From Dehalococcoidia bacterium (GTDB taxonomy: Bacteria > Chloroflexota > Dehalococcoidia > Lucifugimonadales > Lucifugimonadaceae): 64,000 nt of DNA. Below the pieces are notes generated by a model. That model saw nothing but the letters and a program-made list of their open reading frames with translations, had not been told where the DNA came from and made no database searches. The number at the start of each line of letters is the position of its first letter. Position 1 is the first letter of the stretch. The position numbers were made by a program, and so were the translations under genes. Of this stretch, positions 19,593-62,648 are shown one piece after another. Where the stretch lies: NCBI GenBank assembly GCA_012959765.1, contig DUCO01000015.1, positions 1-64,000 on the forward strand. The letters are read 5' to 3'.

Positions 19593-19655
19593 TCTGAACC
19601 CAAAAAATAACGTCGGCACAACTCAGCCGACGCCCCCTCGAAAGTGAGCTTCGAA

Positions 19656-20801
19656 ATGAAGTGGAACATACTCATCACTGGCGGACGAGTAATCGACCCG
19701 TACTCGGGAATCGACGGCGTCCGTGACGTCGCAATAACCGGCAACAAAATCGCCGAGATAGGTGAAAACCTGCCGCAAGATCAGGCCGATCTCGTGATCG
19801 ACGCATCAGACAAGATCGTCACGCCCGGCCTCATCGATCTCCACGTTCACAACTACACGGCACGCGGCAATCGGCCCAGTGTCGACTCCGACTCCACCAA
19901 CATGGCGTACGGAGTCACCACGGCCCTCGACGCCGGTACCGCAACGCCGTCCGAGTACCCCCACTACTGGGAATCCGACATCCAGAACACCAAAGTCAGG
20001 CTCTACTCGCTGGTGCGCATGCCCGACCCGTACGGACCCGACCCGTCATCGGTCGGTGAAGTGAGCGATCTCATCACTAGCTACGACACGCTTCTCGGCG
20101 TGAAGTTCCACCACTCCCAGCACTTCTCATCACTGCCATTGGCTCGAGAAGCCGTTGACTTCGGAGGCGGAATCCTGATGTGCGAAGCCTACGGAGCACC
20201 GATCCCGCAGCTACTCGACTGGATGAACCCCGGCGATATCCTGACCCACACGTTCCACGCAGCATTCCGGTTCCCAATCTTCGACCACCGAGGTCAACTC
20301 TGGTCGAAAATCTGGGACGCCAAAGAACGTGGCGTATTCCTCGATATCGGGCATGGCGCTCGCGGCTTTGCATTCCGAACGATGGAACAGGCGCTTTCGC
20401 AGGGATTCAAGCCCGACACCATAAGCACCGATGTCCACGTCGGCAACATCGATGGCCCCGTCTACGACATGCCAACAACCATGTCGAAAATGCTCGCCAT
20501 CGGTCTCTCTCTCAACGACGTAATCGAAATGTCGACACAAATTCCAGCACGTGCCCTAATGCAAGAAAAAGAGCTGGGCTCACTCGCAGTTGGCACTGTT
20601 GCCGACGTAGTAATCAGCAACATGGATCAGGGCTCGTTCACCTACCTCGACGTACTCCACGAAGAACGCGCGGCCAAAGAAAAATTCTCACCCGAAACAG
20701 TCATCTACTCAGGAAACATCTACGACGGCGACAAGTTCCAACCCGGCGAAATGTCCCACAAACACGACGCCCCACCAGGCTTCATCCTCACAGAAACCTA
20801 A
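19656..20801 (+). CDS. COG3964 amidohydrolase/deacetylase
   Basis: This amidohydrolase-superfamily TIM barrel has a complete binuclear set: HxH in LIDLHVHN, carboxylated-lysine candidate in LLGVKFHHS, His in ILTHTFHAA, His in LDIGHGARGF and Asp in ISTDVH. COG3964 proteins are often misannotated as dihydroorotase; characterised members hydrolyse acetylated alpha-hydroxy acids. The ATG at 19656 is preferred over a GTG at 19644. It forms a transcription unit with the SelA-like gene upstream. The C-terminus is longer than in the other paralogues here. Confidence 0.88.
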   Translation: MKWNILITGGRVIDPYSGIDGVRDVAITGNKIAEIGENLPQDQADLVIDASDKIVTPGLIDLHVHNYTARGNRPSVDSDSTNMAYGVTTALDAGTATPSEYPHYWESDIQNTKVRLYSLVRMPDPYGPDPSSVGEVSDLITSYDTLLGVKFHHSQHFSSLPLAREAVDFGGGILMCEAYGAPIPQLLDWMNPGDILTHTFHAAFRFPIFDHRGQLWSKIWDAKERGVFLDIGHGARGFAFRTMEQALSQGFKPDTISTDVHVGNIDGPVYDMPTTMSKMLAIGLSLNDVIEMSTQIPARALMQEKELGSLAVGTVADVVISNMDQGSFTYLDVLHEERAAKEKFSPETVIYSGNIYDGDKFQPGEMSHKHDAPPGFILTET

Positions 20802-25827: not shown

Positions 25828-26997
25828 CTACGGCAAGTTCAAATCTGTCGTCGGCGTCTCGCCCCAATCATCCTTACCCATACCGTCGTAATCGAACTGA
25901 ACAACGCCATCCTTGATCGTCATCTGGTTAAGCAACCTACCCTCAGCCCTCATGATCCGATACCCGGTCGGACCCGAATCCGAAAGACCCGCCGGACGAT
26001 CCTGGAACTCCAGAATCGAAACATCAGCAAGCGCACCCGGCGTCAACGTCCCCAGCTCGGTGTGATTAATCCACTTTGCCGGCTCCCACGTCGACCGAGC
26101 AACAACCTCAGCCATCGGCATGCCCATAGCTAAGAACTTGCTCATAACCTCAGTCATCTGCGCACGAGAAGTGTGCAAACTCGAACGGTGCATATCAGTT
26201 GAAATAGTGTCAGGCGGGAACCCCTGATCTAACGCAGGCTTCGCCATCGAGAACGAAAAACTGTTGTTCCCATGACCAACATCAAACTTGATTCCCCGCT
26301 TGCGAGCATCAATGTAGTGCTGCTTCACCTTGCCATCATTGCCGATCATCGGCTTCCCGTAACCAAAGCAATGCGTCGTGCCATCACCCGGTCGTAACCG
26401 CTTCAGCATGTCCTCAAAAGTACGAGTCGGCTTAGCGTTCTGATCTACAAGAGTGAACGTACCCGAAAGCCGAGCAGCCTCAACACCCCGGTCGATCGAC
26501 TCCCAACCCTTGCCCTGGAAATGAGCAACTTTTACACCAACAATAATGTCCGACCGCTGCATGATCTTCGCAGCCGTCAGCTCCGCATCCATATCCTCAA
26601 TATCCTGCTCAACATCGCCATCCATACCCTTGCCAACGATATTCAACAACGCAAACACTCGGACAGCCGACTTCTTGATTATCTCGTCATTGAACTGGTC
26701 AAAAGTGCGCCATCCAGCACCACCACAATCGACCATCGTCGTCACACCGTAAGGAAAGCACATCTCCTCAGGAAACATCGCCCCCGAATAGACAGCCGTG
26801 TGAGCGTGAATATCGATCAGCCCCGGCGTCACAAACATGCCCGAAGCATCGATCACACGCCGACCCTGCGACTCCGGAATGTCCTTTTCGACACCCGCCA
26901 CAACCCGCCCGGCAATCCCAACGTCCATCACCTCGTCGATACCGTTTGCGGCATCAATAACATGACCGCCCTTAATCAGTAGATCGTAGCTAGGCAT
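25828..26997 (-). CDS. COG3964 amidohydrolase (import-operon copy)
   Basis: This 389-residue metal-dependent hydrolase has all binuclear-site residues: H64, H66 (IDIHAH), K156 (IVGVKVAHF), H209 (TTHCFGYGKP), H242 (FDVGHGNNSF) and D268 (STDMH). The ATG at 26997 is preferred over a GTG at 27000. It follows the DppC gene by 79 bp and is the last gene of the lipoprotein-DppB-DppC-amidohydrolase series, so its substrate is probably the imported compound. It is a paralogue of the genes at 43.7 and 45.4 kb. Confidence 0.88.
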   Translation of the reverse strand: MPSYDLLIKGGHVIDAANGIDEVMDVGIAGRVVAGVEKDIPESQGRRVIDASGMFVTPGLIDIHAHTAVYSGAMFPEEMCFPYGVTTMVDCGGAGWRTFDQFNDEIIKKSAVRVFALLNIVGKGMDGDVEQDIEDMDAELTAAKIMQRSDIIVGVKVAHFQGKGWESIDRGVEAARLSGTFTLVDQNAKPTRTFEDMLKRLRPGDGTTHCFGYGKPMIGNDGKVKQHYIDARKRGIKFDVGHGNNSFSFSMAKPALDQGFPPDTISTDMHRSSLHTSRAQMTEVMSKFLAMGMPMAEVVARSTWEPAKWINHTELGTLTPGALADVSILEFQDRPAGLSDSGPTGYRIMRAEGRLLNQMTIKDGVVQFDYDGMGKDDWGETPTTDLNLP

Positions 26998-27076
26998 CAC
27001 AAGTAGTCCCTTCGAACTAAACAGAAGTTGAAAACGAAAAAGTTAACGAACCACGATCAAAAAGCAGCCTAGCTGC

Positions 27077-43708: not shown

Positions 43709-44899
43709 TTACGCTGTCCAGGGATTAGTCGGCGGAGTCGACGGCCAGTCATCGCGTGACCGTGCGTTTTTGTCCCACACAACCTGTCCATCTTTAATTG
43801 TCATCTGGCATACGATTCGCTTGTTGGTTCGGTATGCCCTGTTGCCGGATCCATTGTCGGTAAGGCCGAAGTCACCTTCAGCGACTTCCAATACCGCGAT
43901 ATCGGCAAAAGCGGTTTGCCCAATGTTCCCTAGCTCGGGATGGCCGATAGTTTGAGCTGGGACCCAGGTTGAGCGAGCGATGATGTCTGGCAAATCCATG
44001 CCCAGTGCCATCAATTTAGTCATCGTTTCGGGCATTGTGCTTTGATTCACCAGTATGCTCGATGTGTGCATGTCGGTCGAAACGGTGTCGGGCGGGAATC
44101 CCTGCTCAATGGCGTGCTTGGCAATTCGGAACGAAAAACTTCCCGCTCCGTGCCCAACATCAAATTTGACTCCACGTTCGCGAGCTTCGAAGAAGTACGG
44201 CTTAACCTTGTCATTGGAGTCGATCATCGGCTTGTCGAATCCGTAGCAGTGGGTGGTCATATCACCGGGGCGGAGGTGCTCTAATAACATTTCGTTATTA
44301 GGGCGAGATTTGATCGGAGCCTGATCGACCATCACGAAAACACCGGTGTTTTTGGCGGCCTGCACCCCCCGATCTAGCGGTTCCCAGCCGGGTCCACGAT
44401 AATGGGCGACTTTTACGCCAACGATGCGATCTGGACGTTGAGCGATTTTCGCTGAGGTGAGATCGATCGACATTCCTTCCAGATCCTGCTCGGGCAACCC
44501 AACCATTCCCTCGCCTACGATATTCAGTAAGGCAAACACATTTGTCCTGGCGGGAGAGATTATTTTCTCGTCAAAATCGTCGAATGTGAGGTGCCCTGAT
44601 CCGCCCACATCAACTGCGGTTGTGGTGCCTTCTGGCAGGCAATGCGCATCGGGATGAACAGCCGCTACATACCCGTAAAAATGAGCATGTAAATCAATCA
44701 GACCAGGCGTAACGATAAGTCCGGTAACGTCAGCAACTCGACTCGAAAGTGCCGGAGAAATGTCCTTGTCAACGAGCGAAATATATCGCCCCACGATCGC
44801 CACATCGAACAGTCCATCGACGTTGTTTGCGGGGTCGATAACGCGCCCGCCTTTAAGGAGTAAATCGTACTTTCCGGATGCCTTGCTTATCGTTGTCAT
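43709..44899 (-). CDS. COG3964 amidohydrolase (island copy 1)
   Basis: This 396-residue amidohydrolase has a full metal set: HAH in LIDLHAHFYG, Lys in VGVKVAHYRG, His in TTHCYGFDKP, His in FDVGHGAGSF and Asp in VSTDMH. It is very close to the divergent gene at 45367; both contain GRVIDPANNVDGLFDVAIVG. The ATG at 44899 has GAGG at 5 nt; the longer form at 44917 is less likely. Predicted role: deacetylase or amidase acting on the compound imported by the neighbouring ABC system (inference). Confidence 0.88.
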   Translation of the reverse strand: MTTISKASGKYDLLLKGGRVIDPANNVDGLFDVAIVGRYISLVDKDISPALSSRVADVTGLIVTPGLIDLHAHFYGYVAAVHPDAHCLPEGTTTAVDVGGSGHLTFDDFDEKIISPARTNVFALLNIVGEGMVGLPEQDLEGMSIDLTSAKIAQRPDRIVGVKVAHYRGPGWEPLDRGVQAAKNTGVFVMVDQAPIKSRPNNEMLLEHLRPGDMTTHCYGFDKPMIDSNDKVKPYFFEARERGVKFDVGHGAGSFSFRIAKHAIEQGFPPDTVSTDMHTSSILVNQSTMPETMTKLMALGMDLPDIIARSTWVPAQTIGHPELGNIGQTAFADIAVLEVAEGDFGLTDNGSGNRAYRTNKRIVCQMTIKDGQVVWDKNARSRDDWPSTPPTNPWTA

Positions 44900-45366
44900 G
44901 AGAACCTCAAAAACCATGTGCGAAAATTATGTGATCTATTAATTCGATGCTCGGCGACATACTAGTCTTGCTGAGGTAATTAAGGCAGTTTTTGCGGACG
45001 AAATTCACTGAAATTAGACGGTATTTTAAGGTGTTTTCTCCGAGATTCCAGCTCCGAAAATCGTAGCGGCATTCCGGGTAATTATTGAGATCGGGCTAGA
45101 TACGAAAATGGCACACCGGAATGCGGTGATTTGTGACGGAAATTCGTCTTGTGGATTCAACGTCTTATTTCGCACGGTAGAAAGCGTTGTTCGCACCTGG
45201 CGAAAAAGCAGGAAATTGAGGCGGTTTTCAGCGTTTGAGCAGATATTGACTGGTTTTACTTACTCGACGCGCATATAGGAGCGTTATGGAGCGTAATAGT
45301 GAGGCTAATATGTGGCGGAATCGATAAACATCTAACGGCATATATTTAGTGCGATCTGAGGTTCAA
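44900..45366. promoter_or_regulatory. Long divergent intergenic region with an inverted repeat
   Basis: This 467-bp AT-richer region separates two divergent amidohydrolase paralogues. The inverted pair GCATTCCGG (45069-45077) and CCGGAATGC (45116-45124) has perfect 9-bp arms 38 bp apart, near the centre. No gene or RNA is recognised. It presumably holds both promoters and a shared operator. Confidence 0.45.
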
Positions 45367-46557
45367 ATGGTGGCCGAGCAAATAACCGAGCGGATATACG
45401 ATCTTCTTCTAAAAGGCGGGCGCGTTATCGACCCCGCAAACAACGTCGATGGATTGTTCGACGTGGCGATTGTGGGGCGATTCATAGCGCTCGTCGACAA
45501 GGATATTTCGCCAGATCTCGCCAAAACAGTTGCCGACGTCAGCGGCCATGTGGTTACGCCGGGTCTTATAGACATTCATGCGCACTTTTTTGGAATAAAA
45601 GGGGGGGTGCTTCCCGACGCACATTGCCTGCCACAGGGCACAACAACTGGTGTTGATGCCGGCGGTTCTGGTCATCGAACATTTGATGAATTCAACGACA
45701 CTATCATCACGCAATCACTCATGAATGTATTCGCACTGATCAACATCGTCGGTGAAGGGATGATTGGCGAACCCGAACAAGATCTCGAAGATATGGATGC
45801 CGAACTAACAGCCGCAAAAATCAATCAGCGGCCCGACCGAATCGTTGGTGTAAAAGTCGCCCACTACATGGGGCCGGGATGGGCTCCGCTCGATCGCGGT
45901 GTTGAAGCCGCTGAAGATGGTGGCGTTTTCTTGATGGTCGACCAGTCGCCGATTCATACCCGCCCAATGAAAGAAATGATGCTCGATCACCTTCGTTCAG
46001 GCGATATAGTGACTCACTGTTACGCGCTCAGCAAACCAATGACCGATGTCGATGACAAGGTGAAACCGTATTTCTTCGAGGCAAGAGACCGTGGTGTGAA
46101 ATTCGACGTCGGGCACGGTTCAGGGAGTTTCTCGTTCCGCATCGCCAAAGCCGCGATCGAACAGGGGCTTCTACCCGATACTGTTTCCACCGATATGCAT
46201 GAGCCAAGCATCATGTTCAATCAGGCAACGATGCCCGAAACGATGACAAAATTGCTTGCGTTAGGCATGGATTTAGCCGACATCGTGAAGAGGTCTACCT
46301 GGGATCCGGCAGTGGCGATTGGTCACCCCGAACTTGGAAAACTTGGGCAAACATCACTCGCTGATATCGCAGTGCTCGAAATTGCTGAGGGTGATTTTGG
46401 TCTGACCGACAATGGGACCGGCTACCGAGTTTTTCCAGCAGATAAACGAATCGTGTGCCAGATGACGATCAAGGACGGAAAAGTCGTTTGGGACAAGAAC
46501 GGTAAATCACGCGAAAGCTGGACCGCCACTCTGCCAACAAATCCTGCGCTGGACTAG
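45367..46557 (+). CDS. COG3964 amidohydrolase (island copy 2)
   Basis: This 396-residue paralogue retains HAH (LIDIHAHFFG), Lys (VGVKVAHYMG), His (VTHCYALSKP), His (FDVGHGSGSF) and Asp (VSTDMHE). The ATG at 45367 is preceded by GAGG at 5 nt; a GTG at 45349 is an alternative. Differences from copy 1 cluster around the loop after HAH (HFFGIKG versus HFYGYVA), which often shapes substrate choice in this superfamily. It converges with the SelA-like gene. Confidence 0.88.
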   Translation: MVAEQITERIYDLLLKGGRVIDPANNVDGLFDVAIVGRFIALVDKDISPDLAKTVADVSGHVVTPGLIDIHAHFFGIKGGVLPDAHCLPQGTTTGVDAGGSGHRTFDEFNDTIITQSLMNVFALINIVGEGMIGEPEQDLEDMDAELTAAKINQRPDRIVGVKVAHYMGPGWAPLDRGVEAAEDGGVFLMVDQSPIHTRPMKEMMLDHLRSGDIVTHCYALSKPMTDVDDKVKPYFFEARDRGVKFDVGHGSGSFSFRIAKAAIEQGLLPDTVSTDMHEPSIMFNQATMPETMTKLLALGMDLADIVKRSTWDPAVAIGHPELGKLGQTSLADIAVLEIAEGDFGLTDNGTGYRVFPADKRIVCQMTIKDGKVVWDKNGKSRESWTATLPTNPALD

Positions 46558-57249: not shown

Positions 57250-57990
57250 TTAGTCGACGTCGATACGCGGCGGCGGATTCAGCACCGGGTGAATCGCCAG
57301 CAACCTCGCCGACGTCGAAGAAGCGTTGTAAATCCCGTGCCGAATTCCAACCTCGCACGTAAAGCAATCGCCAGCACTCAGCAAAACGTTATTCTCGTCC
57401 GCATACACAGCGTTCAACTCACCCTCGAGACAGAACATCGACTCCTCGTGACCGGGGTGATAGTGATTCGGAGCAATTGAACCCGGCTCGAAAATCAACT
57501 CGCTCAAATAAAGTGAAGCAGCACCCAGAAAAACGCCCACCATATCGAAGCGAGAAACACCCGCCATAAACTCGTACGGCTCGTTATCGCTGCGCACAAA
57601 AACCGTCGCACCCGGATCTCCATCCGTGTACGCAACATCGTCCAACGCCTCACGCTCAGGATCAGCAGTCGGGTAAATCGTAATCAACCGAGCAGGAGAA
57701 TCGCCGACGTTCTCCAAACCATGCCCAATCCCCTTCGGAGCCAGAACACAATCGCCAGTTGAAGCCCGGAATCGGGAAGACCCAATCCTGAACTCCATCT
57801 CACCCTCAACAACGAAAATCGCCTCTTCCGTGTTCGGGTGAAGGTGATAGCCCGACTTCACACCCGGCTGCACCGTCAAATCGCCAACCGTCGCCATCGA
57901 CGCCCCCGTAGAAGCACCCGCCATCATCAAAGAACTCATACCCTCCATCGCAGAGGATTCTTTCTGGTCGGCCCGTCGCAGAATTGTCAT
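57250..57990 (-). CDS. Bicupin protein
   Basis: This 246-residue protein has two tandem cupin barrels. The N-terminal barrel shows SGYHLHPNTEEAIFVVEGE and a late LAPKGIGHG, giving the 3-His/1-Glu metal set. The C-terminal barrel shows NHYHPGHEESMFCLEGE and IRHGIYN. The ATG at 57990 is preferred; upstream in-frame residues are hydrophobic and atypical. Likely roles are isomerase, lyase or ligand sensing in sugar-acid catabolism. It ends the leftward gene series beginning at RraA. Confidence 0.85.
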   Translation of the reverse strand: MTILRRADQKESSAMEGMSSLMMAGASTGASMATVGDLTVQPGVKSGYHLHPNTEEAIFVVEGEMEFRIGSSRFRASTGDCVLAPKGIGHGLENVGDSPARLITIYPTADPEREALDDVAYTDGDPGATVFVRSDNEPYEFMAGVSRFDMVGVFLGAASLYLSELIFEPGSIAPNHYHPGHEESMFCLEGELNAVYADENNVLLSAGDCFTCEVGIRHGIYNASSTSARLLAIHPVLNPPPRIDVD

Positions 57991-58113
57991 ACCAGCTACT
58001 TTCCACAGCCCGAATTGCCACAACAAAACCAACAGCAATTCAAGCCAATAAATTGAATTCGAGAGGCGATAGTCTACAAGGGAAGTCCCAGCAATGCCGA
58101 TCGCCGAAGATCG

Positions 58114-58830
58114 CTAGCTATTCAAGAACGGATGCACCACGCACAACCTGGCTACTTCATCGCCCTGATTGGCAAACCCATACGCCTCGCCAGCCGGGAT
58201 CCCAGCCCCATCGTCCGTCGCCAGCGAATACTTGTTCTCGGCAACCGAAACAACCGAACTCGAAACCACGAACAAAGCAGTCTCTGCATCCTGAGTTTCA
58301 ACTGGCATCACAGCACCCGGCTGAATGTCGACAAAATAGGTGTAAGTCGACTTCGCACCAGAGAAATCACCCGACAACTCAATTCTGTCGACGCCCTCAA
58401 CACCCACCGCATAAGGCATCCGCCTCGACTCAGCGCGAATTATCGCCGGATGCTCGTCCGCATCTTCCAATTCAGGATCGTCGATATGAACGGTCTCAGG
58501 TGAAGTGAGCGGAAAAGCAGTAATCATCCGCCCGATCTTGTCACTCCGATTCTGAAACGCATGCCCAATCCCCGGAGCAGCAGTAACCGTATCGCCCGGA
58601 TACACCGTCACACGCTTACCATCCACCCAGCACTCAAGCTCGCCCTCAAGCATGATCTGAGTCTCCTCAGCACCACCCGTGTGATAGTGATGCGGCACAC
58701 CGTGACCCGGCAAATACGAAAGATCGCCAACGTGCAAACTAGTGTGCCCAAAATCAGCACCGATAATAGCAAACCGAGGACACCCCGGATACCGATCCAC
58801 AGCCTCCTGCTCCGACCTACGAATAATCAA
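58114..58830 (-). CDS. Bicupin protein with a degenerate second barrel
   Basis: The N-terminal cupin of this 238-residue protein is intact (PHHYHTGGAEETQIMLEGE; AAPGIGHAF). In the second barrel the corresponding segment is VMPVETQDAETALFVV, with no histidines, so it probably lacks metal and is structural. It lies 114 bp downstream of the divergent COG3964 amidohydrolase and 124 bp upstream of the other bicupin. Confidence 0.82.
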   Translation of the reverse strand: MIIRRSEQEAVDRYPGCPRFAIIGADFGHTSLHVGDLSYLPGHGVPHHYHTGGAEETQIMLEGELECWVDGKRVTVYPGDTVTAAPGIGHAFQNRSDKIGRMITAFPLTSPETVHIDDPELEDADEHPAIIRAESRRMPYAVGVEGVDRIELSGDFSGAKSTYTYFVDIQPGAVMPVETQDAETALFVVSSSVVSVAENKYSLATDDGAGIPAGEAYGFANQGDEVARLCVVHPFLNS

Positions 58831-58877: not shown

Positions 58878-58972
58878 TGTCATCCTGAACTTGATTCAGG
58901 ATCCATGCCAACCCGCAAACAACCTAACACCCCAACCAACACCTCAAAGGCCAGAAATAGTGGCAATGCCAC
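58878..58972 (+). repeat. B-C repeat block overlapping a coding end
   Basis: B is at 58878-58904, and C at 58934-58972 with hairpin GTGGCAATGCCAC (58960-58972). The last codons of the leftward amidohydrolase-like gene (GGGIATISGL) are read through this repeat, so the element supplied the present C-terminus. Confidence 0.85.
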
Positions 58973-60086
58973 CACCCTTCACCACGTCCATAGCTCGCCA
59001 TCGGATCTCGCTGCGAACTTCACCACGACCATCCACCATTTCTTCAACAACATCCCCAGCCCTCACAACACAAAAATCAGCAGCAGCACCCACCTCCAAC
59101 CGCCCAATCTCATCGCCCAAACCAAGCACCCGCGCCGGCACCGAAGTCACCAACGGCCAACACTCGTCAGCCATCATCCCAACAGCGATCATCTTCGAAA
59201 CGACATGCGGCATATCGTGATCCGGCTCCTCCACAAAATGATGCCGATAATAATCCGTAGAAATCGTGTCAGGCACAAACCCCTCAGCAACCGCCACCTC
59301 AGCCACATCGAACCCGAACGCCGTGGCACCATCGCCAACATCGAACAACACACCCCGCTCACGAGCCTCCCACACGAAATCGAGTACCCGGCCGTCCTCA
59401 ACAATGGCCCCATCGCCCGAGTAAAAGCAGTACGTCATCAAATCGCCCGGCCTCAATAATTCAAGCTGAGCCGAAAGAGGAACATCCGCATTCTTAGTCG
59501 CCCCGAAAATCACCGGCTTACCCGACTCCTCAGCAGCACGAATCCCCCTTCGCATCACCTCAAGCGGATCAACCCCCTCGCCGCGAATCAAAGCGATATT
59601 CAGCGAAATGCCCCACACATGCGAACCACCCCGCTCGATCGCCGCAACACACTCATCAACACTCGCTTCGTCCAGACTAAAAAAGCGACCATCAGGGTTC
59701 GATTCGCCCTCCGCACAAAAGTTAATCGCTAACTTCACACGGGTACGAGCCGACTCGATCGTCTCTTCTATATACCGATCCATATTCAGCGCCCCGGCAT
59801 CACCCTGCGAAAGCACAGTAGTCGAACCCCGAGGCAACAGGCACGTATCCGAATCAATCCCAAACTTCGAACCCGAAAGCGCCGGGTGAGCATGCAAATC
59901 CACCATCCCCGGAAGCAACACACCCTCATCAACAACAATCGTCTCCCGGGCAGTCGGAACCTCGCCACCAATATCACCCGACTCCACAAAAGCAATCAAT
60001 CCATCCCGCACACCAATCACACCCGCACCATCCAACCCGGTAGCAGGACAAACCATCCGCGAAGCAGAAATCACCAAATCCAACAT
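58944..60086 (-). CDS. COG3964-like amidohydrolase paralogue with a depleted metal site
   Basis: Alignment by eye to the paralogue at 25828 is good over the whole barrel. HxH is kept (H65, H67 in VDLHAHP) and so is the catalytic Asp (D278 in STDYY). But the carboxylated Lys becomes S161 (WGISLNI), the first metal His becomes Y219 (MTYCFY) and the second becomes D252 (FDVGDGAT). A binuclear centre as in the other copies is therefore unlikely. It overlaps the dehydrogenase stop (TAATG), so it is expressed in that operon. It may be a mononuclear enzyme or a binding protein. Confidence 0.87.
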   Translation of the reverse strand: MLDLVISASRMVCPATGLDGAGVIGVRDGLIAFVESGDIGGEVPTARETIVVDEGVLLPGMVDLHAHPALSGSKFGIDSDTCLLPRGSTTVLSQGDAGALNMDRYIEETIESARTRVKLAINFCAEGESNPDGRFFSLDEASVDECVAAIERGGSHVWGISLNIALIRGEGVDPLEVMRRGIRAAEESGKPVIFGATKNADVPLSAQLELLRPGDLMTYCFYSGDGAIVEDGRVLDFVWEARERGVLFDVGDGATAFGFDVAEVAVAEGFVPDTISTDYYRHHFVEEPDHDMPHVVSKMIAVGMMADECWPLVTSVPARVLGLGDEIGRLEVGAAADFCVVRAGDVVEEMVDGRGEVRSEIRWRAMDVVKGGGIATISGL

Positions 60087-61162
60087 TAGTTATTAGGCCT
60101 CACCATCACCCGAATCGCCCCCGACTCCCTCTTATCGTCAGCCGTAGCAAACGCCACCCCAATCTCATCCAGCGAAAAATGATGCGTGACGATAGGATCT
60201 GGATTCAGTCGACCCGACGCCAACAACCCAAGCGAAGTCGCAAACTCCGACTCACCCTTCCAGCTCGAAAAACTGTTCGACCAGCCGATAGTCACCTCAC
60301 GCTCCATCGCCAAAACGGGGTCAATCGTCTGGGGCTTCGTGAACAGCCCGATCACCGAAACAGCACCACCGCGCCGAGTCATCTCAACCGCCTGCTGAAT
60401 CAGCTGACTCTGCCCACCAACCGTCTCGAACGTAACCACTGCACCCTCGCCTCCAGTAGCAGCCAAAACAGCCTCCACCGGATCCGACCCAGAAGCAATA
60501 ACAACGCCAACATCAGCCGCACCCGACGCAACAGCAACCTCCACCGGCTGCTCTCGAGTCCCAATTAAAATCACCTTGCTCGCCCCACGAGCCTTCAACA
60601 CCTGACCCAACGTCAACGCAATCGCACCCGCCCCAATAATCGCAACGTTCTGGCCCGAAACATCCGGAACACGGTTCATCGCATGAACCCCGCACGAATA
60701 GCAATCCACCAGCGCAGCAGCATCAAAAGAAACATCGTCAGGCAAAACCGTCACGTTCTCGGCTACGCAAACGTCGTACTGCGAAAAGCCGTGACTCGAT
60801 TGCTTCGCCCCGTGCCTAACACCCCGTTCCAGACATATGTGGTACTGACCGTCCTTGCACAACCGGCACACACCACACCCAAGCAAATGCTCTGCCTCAA
60901 TGCCCACCCGCTGGCCGATCTCTAGACCCGTCACGCCCTCACCCAATCCGGCAATAACACCCGAAAGCTCATGACCCTGCTGCCACGGAACGTCTTCACG
61001 AGTCCGATGCCCCCGGTAATTGTGCAAATCACTCCCGCAAACACCAGCCGACATCACCTTAAACAACACCTCGTCGGCACCCGGCGAAGGAATCTCTTCC
61101 TCAACAACCCGAATGTCTTCCCCACCATAAAAATAAGCAGTCTTCATCATCGCCAAAACCAA
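60086..61162 (-). CDS. Zinc-dependent medium-chain alcohol/polyol dehydrogenase
   Basis: This 358-residue MDR enzyme has catalytic zinc ligands C42 (GVCGSD) and H64-E65 (QGHELSG), structural zinc C96, C99, C102 and C110 (GCGVCRLCKDGQYHIC) and the nucleotide site GAGAIALTLG. It resembles sorbitol/threonine dehydrogenases. The TTG at 61162 is supported by AGGAG 4 nt upstream; the nearby ATG at 61147 is the alternative. Its stop overlaps the next start by one base. It would oxidise a polyol or hydroxy acid. Confidence 0.92.
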   Translation of the reverse strand: MVLAMMKTAYFYGGEDIRVVEEEIPSPGADEVLFKVMSAGVCGSDLHNYRGHRTREDVPWQQGHELSGVIAGLGEGVTGLEIGQRVGIEAEHLLGCGVCRLCKDGQYHICLERGVRHGAKQSSHGFSQYDVCVAENVTVLPDDVSFDAAALVDCYSCGVHAMNRVPDVSGQNVAIIGAGAIALTLGQVLKARGASKVILIGTREQPVEVAVASGAADVGVVIASGSDPVEAVLAATGGEGAVVTFETVGGQSQLIQQAVEMTRRGGAVSVIGLFTKPQTIDPVLAMEREVTIGWSNSFSSWKGESEFATSLGLLASGRLNPDPIVTHHFSLDEIGVAFATADDKRESGAIRVMVRPNN

Positions 61163-61408: not shown

Positions 61409-61783
61409 TCACCGTTCAACAACAATCTCCGCACCGTCCGCCACCTGCGCAAACACCCTCGGATCGCCATCAATCAAGCCCATAACATTCACAGTTGAAG
61501 CAGGACGAATCTCACCCGGCGCGCTCATCGGAGTCGGACCCCAGAACAAACACAACGCCTTACCCGGAGGCCAGTAAGCAACCGCCCCCATCTCAACCGT
61601 CTCGACCGCGTCCTCGACCTCATCCGCACTCACCGGAATCGAAAAGTAAATCTCATCGCCCCAAGTCTGAGCAACCCCCGTAATCGGCAAAGCATCCCAC
61701 AACAAATCCGCCGTCGACGAATCATTCAAACTAGCCGTAACAACCAACCCATCAACAGAAATCTGCACAACCCGATCACTCAT
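61409..61783 (-). CDS. Cyclophilin-like TM1367-family protein
   Basis: The 124-residue product matches the TM1367-like cyclophilin-fold family (PF04126): WDALPITGVAQTWGDEIYFS, MGAVAYWPPGKALCLFWGPT and ASTVNVMG. The fold resembles peptidyl-prolyl isomerases, but the family's function is not established. The ATG at 61783 is used, with GGAG 9 nt upstream. It sits between the RraA-like and dehydrogenase genes in the same direction, so it may belong to that catabolic unit. Confidence 0.86.
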   Translation of the reverse strand: MSDRVVQISVDGLVVTASLNDSSTADLLWDALPITGVAQTWGDEIYFSIPVSADEVEDAVETVEMGAVAYWPPGKALCLFWGPTPMSAPGEIRPASTVNVMGLIDGDPRVFAQVADGAEIVVER

Positions 61784-61807
61784 AAGCACTCACTCCATTC
61801 GAACCAT

Positions 61808-61913: not shown

Positions 61914-62648
61914 CTAGCGATTCTTCCAGGCAGCGTAAATCTTCTCCGTCTCCTCGTTGAACGGATAAAAGAACTTAGGCGAAATACCCTCGCGCTGCGT
62001 GTGCCACAAAATCGCAGCCTCAATCTCATCGTGATGTACACACTCGTCGTAAATCTCCTCAGCCAACTGCGACGGCAACACAACCACACCATCCTCATCG
62101 CCAAGAATCACATCACCCGGCCAAACCAACACCGTGCCACACGCCACCGGCTCGTTCACCTCGTAAGGCAAAACATTCGGCTCGCCAATCGTCGGAGTAC
62201 TACCTCCGCCGTAAACCGGATACCCGTACTGCGCCACCTTGTGACCATCACGAACACCACCATCCGTCACCAACCCCGCCGCCTTCTGCGAAAGAATCCG
62301 TGAAAACACAACGTCCCCACCAGTCGACGTCATGCTCAAGCCCATGCAATCGGCAACCAAAACATCACCCGGCATCAGCGCCTCAAGCGCATCCCACCTC
62401 GGCGTCTCGTTAAACCCCTCGCCATGACCACCACGAGTCACATGCTCCTGCAAATCTGGACGCGAAGGCAGATAGCGAAGAGTCACCGCACGACCCACCA
62501 AACGACGACCCGGCGACAGACTCTGTACGCCATACATAAACACCTTCATGTACCCACGCTTCGCCAACGCCCCAAGAACAGTCGCATTCGAAACGGTTTC
62601 GTACTTCTTTAAAAGGTCATCAGATACTCTGATGGCTGCATCAACCAA
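61914..62648 (-). CDS. RraA-like aldolase (4-hydroxy-4-methyl-2-oxoglutarate aldolase type)
   Basis: This 244-residue RraA/MenG-like protein has GGDVVFSRILSQKAAGLVTD and GGVRD (R133-D134), the metal- and oxoacid-binding motif of class II HMG/CHA aldolases, and DEDGVVVLP near the C-terminus. The true substrate is probably a hydroxy-oxoacid; RNase E inhibition is not implied. The TTG start at 62648 has AGGAG 7 nt upstream. It heads the leftward series RraA, TM1367-like, dehydrogenase, amidohydrolase-like, bicupins. Confidence 0.9.
   Translation of the reverse strand: MVDAAIRVSDDLLKKYETVSNATVLGALAKRGYMKVFMYGVQSLSPGRRLVGRAVTLRYLPSRPDLQEHVTRGGHGEGFNETPRWDALEALMPGDVLVADCMGLSMTSTGGDVVFSRILSQKAAGLVTDGGVRDGHKVAQYGYPVYGGGSTPTIGEPNVLPYEVNEPVACGTVLVWPGDVILGDEDGVVVLPSQLAEEIYDECVHHDEIEAAILWHTQREGISPKFFYPFNEETEKIYAAWKNR

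Follow-up and report, generated by a model that had tools for sequence, protein, structure and literature searches.

The stretch of DNA considered here (the window: 64,000 nucleotides at the start of contig DUCO01000015.1 of a Dehalococcoidia bacterium, whose genome of 2.63 Mb in 49 contigs is 92% complete with 1.4% contamination) encodes an amidohydrolase-fold protein of the COG3964 type, in which several of the residues that hold the metals in related proteins are replaced. The question arises which ligands have been lost and what kind of protein is left. An earlier note on this DNA had counted three of six metal-site residues as lost and had offered two readings, namely (i) a mononuclear enzyme of new specificity or (ii) a non-catalytic binding protein.

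Fold of the protein and identity of the lost ligands

58944..60086, minus strand: COG3964-type amidohydrolase-fold gene of the M-beta-less subfamily, ATG start, 380 aa

The open reading frame of 380 codons runs from the ATG at 60086 down to 58944. Its AlphaFold model, built with a 28-row alignment, has a mean pLDDT of 92.7 and a pTM of 0.92, which agrees with the earlier description of a well-kept barrel, and the barrel strands are predicted to end at residues 66, 94, 122, 163, 195, 218, 249 and just before 278. Structural comparison yields VIA Z values of 45-48 against 2ics, 8wzy, 8je0 and 2ogj, as opposed to about 29 for the next families, and Foldseek matches the model to COG3964 structures with E values of 9e-35 to 6e-22. 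The best NCBIfam models for the protein are three of the COG3964 type, and none of the curated models reaches its cut-off on it (PRK09237, 217.5 bits vs 371; EF_0837, 147 bits vs 432). When 28 aligned members were searched against NCBIfam at E 1e-20, matches were obtained solely to three generic COG3964 models.

The protein has the barrel, the HxH after strand 1 and the Asp after strand 8 by which the amidohydrolase superfamily is recognised, and in full-length sequence and fold it is closer to COG3964 than to any other group. The binuclear site of COG3964, with Lys on strand 4 and His on strands 5 and 6, is however missing, as S161, G195 and Y219 occupy these positions. As such, the protein belongs to COG3964 by fold and ancestry, yet stands outside the metal site that defines this group.

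All six residues listed in the earlier note (H65, H67, S161, Y219, D252 and D278) are present as read, and its count of three lost ligands out of six stands; the set does not, as position 252 was wrongly included and position 195 overlooked. The superfamily motif is HxH-X83-140-Lys-X25-70-Hisc-X18-25-Hisd-X52-143-Asp (PMC4407906). Within these ranges fall the spacings 67-161 (X93), 161-195 (X33), 195-219 (X23) and 219-278 (X58), whereas 219-252 (X32) and 252-278 (X25) lie outside; since the motif admits 195/219 and rejects 252, Hisc corresponds to 195 and Hisd to 219. In the predicted strand order, strand 4 carries 161 and strand 5 carries 195, residue 219 directly follows strand 6, and 252 and 278 come behind strands 7 and 8, respectively; in a profile alignment the Lys, His and His of 8je0, 2ics, 8wzy and 2ogj fall on 161, 195 and 219, with Asn at column 252 in 8je0. 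As M-beta ligands we thus identify K161 (strand 4), His195 (strand 5) and His219 (strand 6), and because all three are replaced the entire M-beta site is absent. The M-alpha half (HxH) and the catalytic Asp are retained while the M-beta site is erased:

59886..59894, minus strand: H65 and H67 (HxH) after strand 1, M-alpha ligands, kept; invariant wherever covered
59604..59606, minus strand: S161 at the position of the carboxylated Lys on strand 4, bridging ligand lost; Lys in 50/50 canonical, Ala, Ser or Thr in 45/45 subfamily sequences
59502..59504, minus strand: G195 at the strand-5 His (Hisc), M-beta ligand lost; Gly in 45/45 subfamily sequences, His in 43/50 canonical ones and Asp or Glu in the remaining 7
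59430..59432, minus strand: Y219 at the strand-6 His (Hisd), M-beta ligand lost; Tyr in 45/45 subfamily, His in 50/50 canonical sequences
59331..59333, minus strand: D252 replacing the His of 'GHG' after strand 7; Asp in 9/9 tree sequences of a nested clade
59253..59255, minus strand: D278 at the end of strand 8, catalytic Asp, kept; invariant in 95/95 sequences

The view that D252 replaces a metal-ligand His is contradicted by the motif spacing, the strand order of the model and the alignment to the four structures. Elsewhere in the subfamily column 252 is His in 35/36 sequences, and in relatives it can also be Val, Tyr, Asn or Phe, most of these relatives having the full metal set. D252 is thus not among the six superfamily ligands but marks the nested clade, and a role of D252 itself as metal ligand was rejected on account of the spacing, the strand order and this variability in metal-complete relatives.

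G195 had escaped attention because the comparison was made with paralogues of the window, in which this column holds Asp or Glu. The four other COG3964 paralogues of the window, all with the Lys and the strand-6 His kept, are:

19644-20801: COG3964 paralogue with Glu at column 195
25828-27000: COG3964 paralogue with Asp at column 195
43709-44917: COG3964 paralogue with Asp at column 195
45349-46557: COG3964 paralogue with Asp at column 195

The same strand-5 carboxylate variant is found at a locus on another contig of the window genome (L004, contig C22) and in a second genome (L135, G074). A further paralogue of the window genome (L007, contig C3) has Lys-His-His intact, Val at the strand-7 GHG His and a long branch. 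The many paralogous catabolic enzymes hint at a SAR202-type member of the Chloroflexota as the host (compare PMC6946804).

Distribution, history and pocket of the subfamily

A search of 250 genomes of the window genome's order found full or partial orthologues of 60-73% identity in ten further genomes, all with S161 and G195. Column 252 is covered in eight of them and is Asp in 8/8, the other two orthologues being contig-edge fragments that end before this residue. Wider relatives at 39-50% identity have A/S/T161, G195, Y219 and H252 (one Phe). The subfamily is spread over many families of the order, and its type extends to further classes of the phylum: in a sample of 400 genomes from across the phylum, a subfamily profile gives matches that pass E 1e-80 in 32, residues having been read in all but one, and one of the 32 (G855, L140) has a canonical K-H-H protein, which places the subfamily in about 31/400 genomes (about 8%) by profile search. 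One genome (G106) carries both subfamily types (L015, L126). In three genomes, two to three COG3964 genes lie side by side (L112 in G246, L124 in G017, L131 in G247), and the cluster at L124 holds canonical members together with one subfamily member.

Among 398 genomes of Proteobacteria no subfamily member was seen, the best score being 254 bits vs 478 and more for members elsewhere, and the loci read there have K-H-H in 15/15 cases. The sole match in a search of genome contigs, L040 from this phylum, was rejected as an unrelated amidohydrolase that aligns over the N-terminus only. The plasmid matches listed have at most about 34% identity, and the four that were read (4/4) have the K-H-H ligands. 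No paper describing the subfamily was found in the open-access literature, a scope outside which most subscription journals fall; the subfamily is conserved and apparently undescribed.

In a maximum-likelihood tree of 95 sequences, the 45 from the subfamily lie on one side of a single branch (support 100/100) apart from the 50 canonical ones, and the nine D252 members are grouped together, again with 100/100. Both splits were recovered after removal of all trait columns (SH-aLRT 100), and H65, H67 and D278 are conserved in subfamily and canonical sequences alike. The altered site of the 45 sampled sequences therefore forms a conserved clade in the family alignment, as the earlier note had considered possible. 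The triple change that it described is conserved across a clade as well, but did not arise in one event, K161, H195 and H219 having been lost first and H252 later. The most parsimonious history would accordingly have two steps, in which the M-beta ligands disappeared at the root of the subfamily and Asp later took the place of H252 in the nested clade. With one metal half lost, the other invariant and the H252-keeping intermediate still alive, the loss of a metal site becomes testable across three living protein sets.

The statement that the gene is not decaying is borne out by codon comparison, in which the three pairs with estimable and unsaturated dS gave dN/dS values of 0.21, 0.19 and 0.07 (the last one rough, its dS being as high as 3.4), and by the frames, which are open throughout the D252 clade with 0 stop codons in any member. 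A decaying paralogue or a sequencing or assembly error, for which nothing speaks besides the unusual residues, can be dismissed with near certainty: the same residues recur in independent genomes, in open reading frames and with dN/dS well below 1, so that the orthologues refute this reading and with it the case of private changes accompanied by decay. The gene probably encodes a working enzyme with changed chemistry. In two small genomes (L035 in G131, L036 in G135), the match to a subfamily member crosses one TAA at the same place, which is probably the natural end of the gene.

In addition to the lost ligands, the subfamily has residues of its own around the active site:

59805..59810, minus strand: S93-Q94 at the end of strand 2, for canonical D93-A94; S/Q in 44/44 subfamily sequences covering them
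59703..59705, minus strand: E128 after strand 3, subfamily-specific; Glu in 42/45
59598..59615, minus strand: W158 to N163 on strand 4 (WGxSxN), for canonical [VL]GxKxR; W158 in 45/45, N163 in 40/45
59217..59240, minus strand: H283 and H290 just after the catalytic Asp, subfamily-specific; H283 in 45/45, H290 in 45/45

Taken together, canonical D93, A94, R163, H280 and N/S283 are exchanged for S93, Q94, N163, Y280 (Gln in a few members) and H283, and H290, W158, P68, Y105 and E128 are near-invariant as well; at 283 and 290 canonical sequences mostly have N/S and F/Y, respectively. By this pattern of fixed exchanges, the pocket is rebuilt rather than eroded, and H283 and H290 can be regarded as candidate substitute ligands or acid-base groups.

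One could therefore imagine that a binuclear or mononuclear centre was relocated onto substitute ligands (H283, H290, E128 or D252) with the metal chemistry largely conserved. H283 and H290 sit 5 and 12 residues past D278; every sampled subfamily sequence has them, canonical ones hardly ever do. D252, in turn, places an acidic side chain where strand 7 ends. However, most subfamily members have His at column 252, a position that is variable among enzymes whose sites are intact, and substrate binding would be an equally good role for the gained residues, so that we consider a relocated centre rather unlikely. Still far less credit is due to the second reading of the earlier note, a non-catalytic binding protein akin to the CRMPs, which are related to dihydropyrimidinase. 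Although three of six ligands are lost and the fold is kept, the HxH and the catalytic Asp never vary among the sampled sequences, in a protein that only binds, the Asp should have disappeared at some point within the clade, and the pocket has gained fixed polar and aromatic residues. Because of these unvarying residues and the newly fixed ones this reading is disfavoured, and pseudoenzyme status is unlikely.

Genomic surroundings

The neighbouring genes on the minus strand are:

61914..62648, minus strand: RraA-like aldolase-family gene at the head of the cluster (PF03737; NCBIfam PRK08245, 213 bits, cut-off 208)
61409..61789, minus strand: cyclophilin-like open reading frame (PF04126, 142 bits) between the RraA-like gene and the dehydrogenase
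60086..61162, minus strand: zinc-type medium-chain dehydrogenase, upstream (ADH_N, ADH_zinc_N)
58114..58830, minus strand: bicupin protein, downstream (Cupin_2 in two stretches)
57250..58038, minus strand: second bicupin protein (Cupin_2 in two stretches)

The order in the window genome is thus RraA-like, cyclophilin-like, zinc-type dehydrogenase, amidohydrolase, bicupin, bicupin; the start of the dehydrogenase is likely an ATG a few codons into its frame. As the ATG of the amidohydrolase and the TAA of the dehydrogenase share one base (TAATG), the two genes are probably translationally coupled in the window genome. The overlap behind the earlier claim of co-translation is hence real, but it is weak evidence against decay, the arrangement being limited to the genus. 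Among the genomes examined, G108 and G110 are the only ones besides the window genome to have the full or near-full order; they are also the two closest relatives on the gene tree, together with G000 (support 100/98). In G116 and G124 the dehydrogenase adjoins the bicupin gene without the amidohydrolase in between, the latter being encoded on a different contig. The dehydrogenase-cupin pair is likewise present in G121 and G111, where no subfamily member was found, the matches being canonical-like only (best E about 1e-47). The link to the dehydrogenase carries little weight because within the same genus the dehydrogenase-cupin pair occurs without the amidohydrolase between, and the adjacency is a recent, genus-limited arrangement.

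Gene neighbourhoods vary across the subfamily and elsewhere include an enolase-family gene, hydantoinase A, an acyltransferase, short-chain dehydrogenases or transporters; not being conserved, they are of little help with function. Operon context was consequently dropped as a guide to the substrate, given that the full order is confined to the three genomes named above. Overall, the context suggests catabolism of small organic acids without naming a substrate, and from the mixed catabolic neighbours a small organic acid or sugar-acid derivative would be our guess.

A near-palindromic repeat, CCTGAATCAAGTTCAGG, occurs 9 times in the window, each time in the same orientation, and 30 times in the genome, with 0 in the reversed control and a chance expectation of 0.04 in the window. 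One copy (58884-58900) falls into the gap that separates the amidohydrolase gene from the first bicupin gene; the others are at 2584, 4065, 8329, 16990, 20910, 32806, 34294 and 57172.

Possible mechanism and comparison with known systems

From our point of view, the lost and kept residues are, with fair probability, best explained by an active barrel enzyme of a COG3964 subfamily of single origin, which has lost the M-beta half of the metal site and kept the M-alpha half together with D278. With K161, H195 and H219 changed to A/S/T, Gly and Tyr, a water held between two metals would be impossible in the normal way, and for this reason one alpha-site metal or none is to be expected; a mononuclear mechanism with M-alpha only, or a metal-free one, is likely. 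In the first case, catalysis would proceed on a single metal held by H65, H67 and D278, with a fourth ligand perhaps contributed by the newly gained residues. In the second, D278 could act as general acid-base while the HxH orients the substrate. The later change of the second-shell H252 to Asp in the window's clade may then have tuned specificity. The mononuclear enzyme of new specificity put forward earlier fits in so far as the losses coincide exactly with the M-beta ligands, whereas the M-alpha ligands and the Asp never vary. Alpha-mononuclear and metal-independent enzymes are both accepted classes of the superfamily (PMC12017989). Two His and one Asp amount to three protein ligands and would make a thin metal site.

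Taken alone, the metal-free branch of this explanation, a LigI-like enzyme in which the HxH and the Asp serve as acid-base and binding groups and no metal is bound, seems possible but somewhat doubtful to us. All M-beta ligands are gone and merely three alpha-site residues are left, the class is a recognised one in the superfamily (PMC12017989), and the new His residues could take on acid-base roles, but neither the HxH nor the Asp is replaced in any sampled member, which is what a metal site would call for. One could further speculate, with some reserve, that the enzyme with a single alpha-site metal or none catalyses a non-hydrolytic reaction on a small organic acid, such as an isomerisation, lyase or decarboxylation reaction, and that this switch arose independently inside COG3964. 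If true, it would represent an exit from metal-water hydrolysis, from hydrolase to non-hydrolase, that became fixed across one bacterial phylum. Automatic annotation describes COG3964 proteins as metal-dependent deacetylases; for the subfamily this is probably wrong in kind, as its active site cannot be the annotated one.

With COG3964 proteins (PRK09237; 2ogj Atu3266, 2ics EF0837, 8je0 and 8wzy), the window protein shares the full-length fold, the HxH and the strand-8 Asp, at 23-29% identity to the solved structures. It differs in that these structures have Lys, His and His at 161, 195 and 219, whereas the subfamily has A/S/T, Gly and Tyr and a pocket of its own. Uronate isomerase, which holds one weak zinc by the HxH and the strand-8 Asp alone and catalyses an isomerisation, and the 2-pyrone-4,6-dicarboxylate lactonase LigI, a metal-free superfamily member that has kept the HxH and the Asp, may be the nearest analogues; the former is a separate sequence family, and both family and pocket of the latter differ from those of the subfamily. 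In alpha-mononuclear deaminases of subtype III (cytosine, guanine and adenosine deaminases), the strand-5 His is a ligand and the strand-6 His is kept too. Like the subfamily, these enzymes have the alpha-site HxH and Asp and no bridging Lys, but at their His on strands 5 and 6 the subfamily has Gly and Tyr, and the site of the subfamily is leaner than theirs, since the known deaminases retain both. The guanine-deaminase-type site consists of three His and one Asp (PMC13054789). Lastly, the beta-mononuclear molinate hydrolase and PpOngB use M-beta and not M-alpha (PMC4407906, PMC12017989), and thus work with one half-site, as proposed for the subfamily, but with the opposite half.
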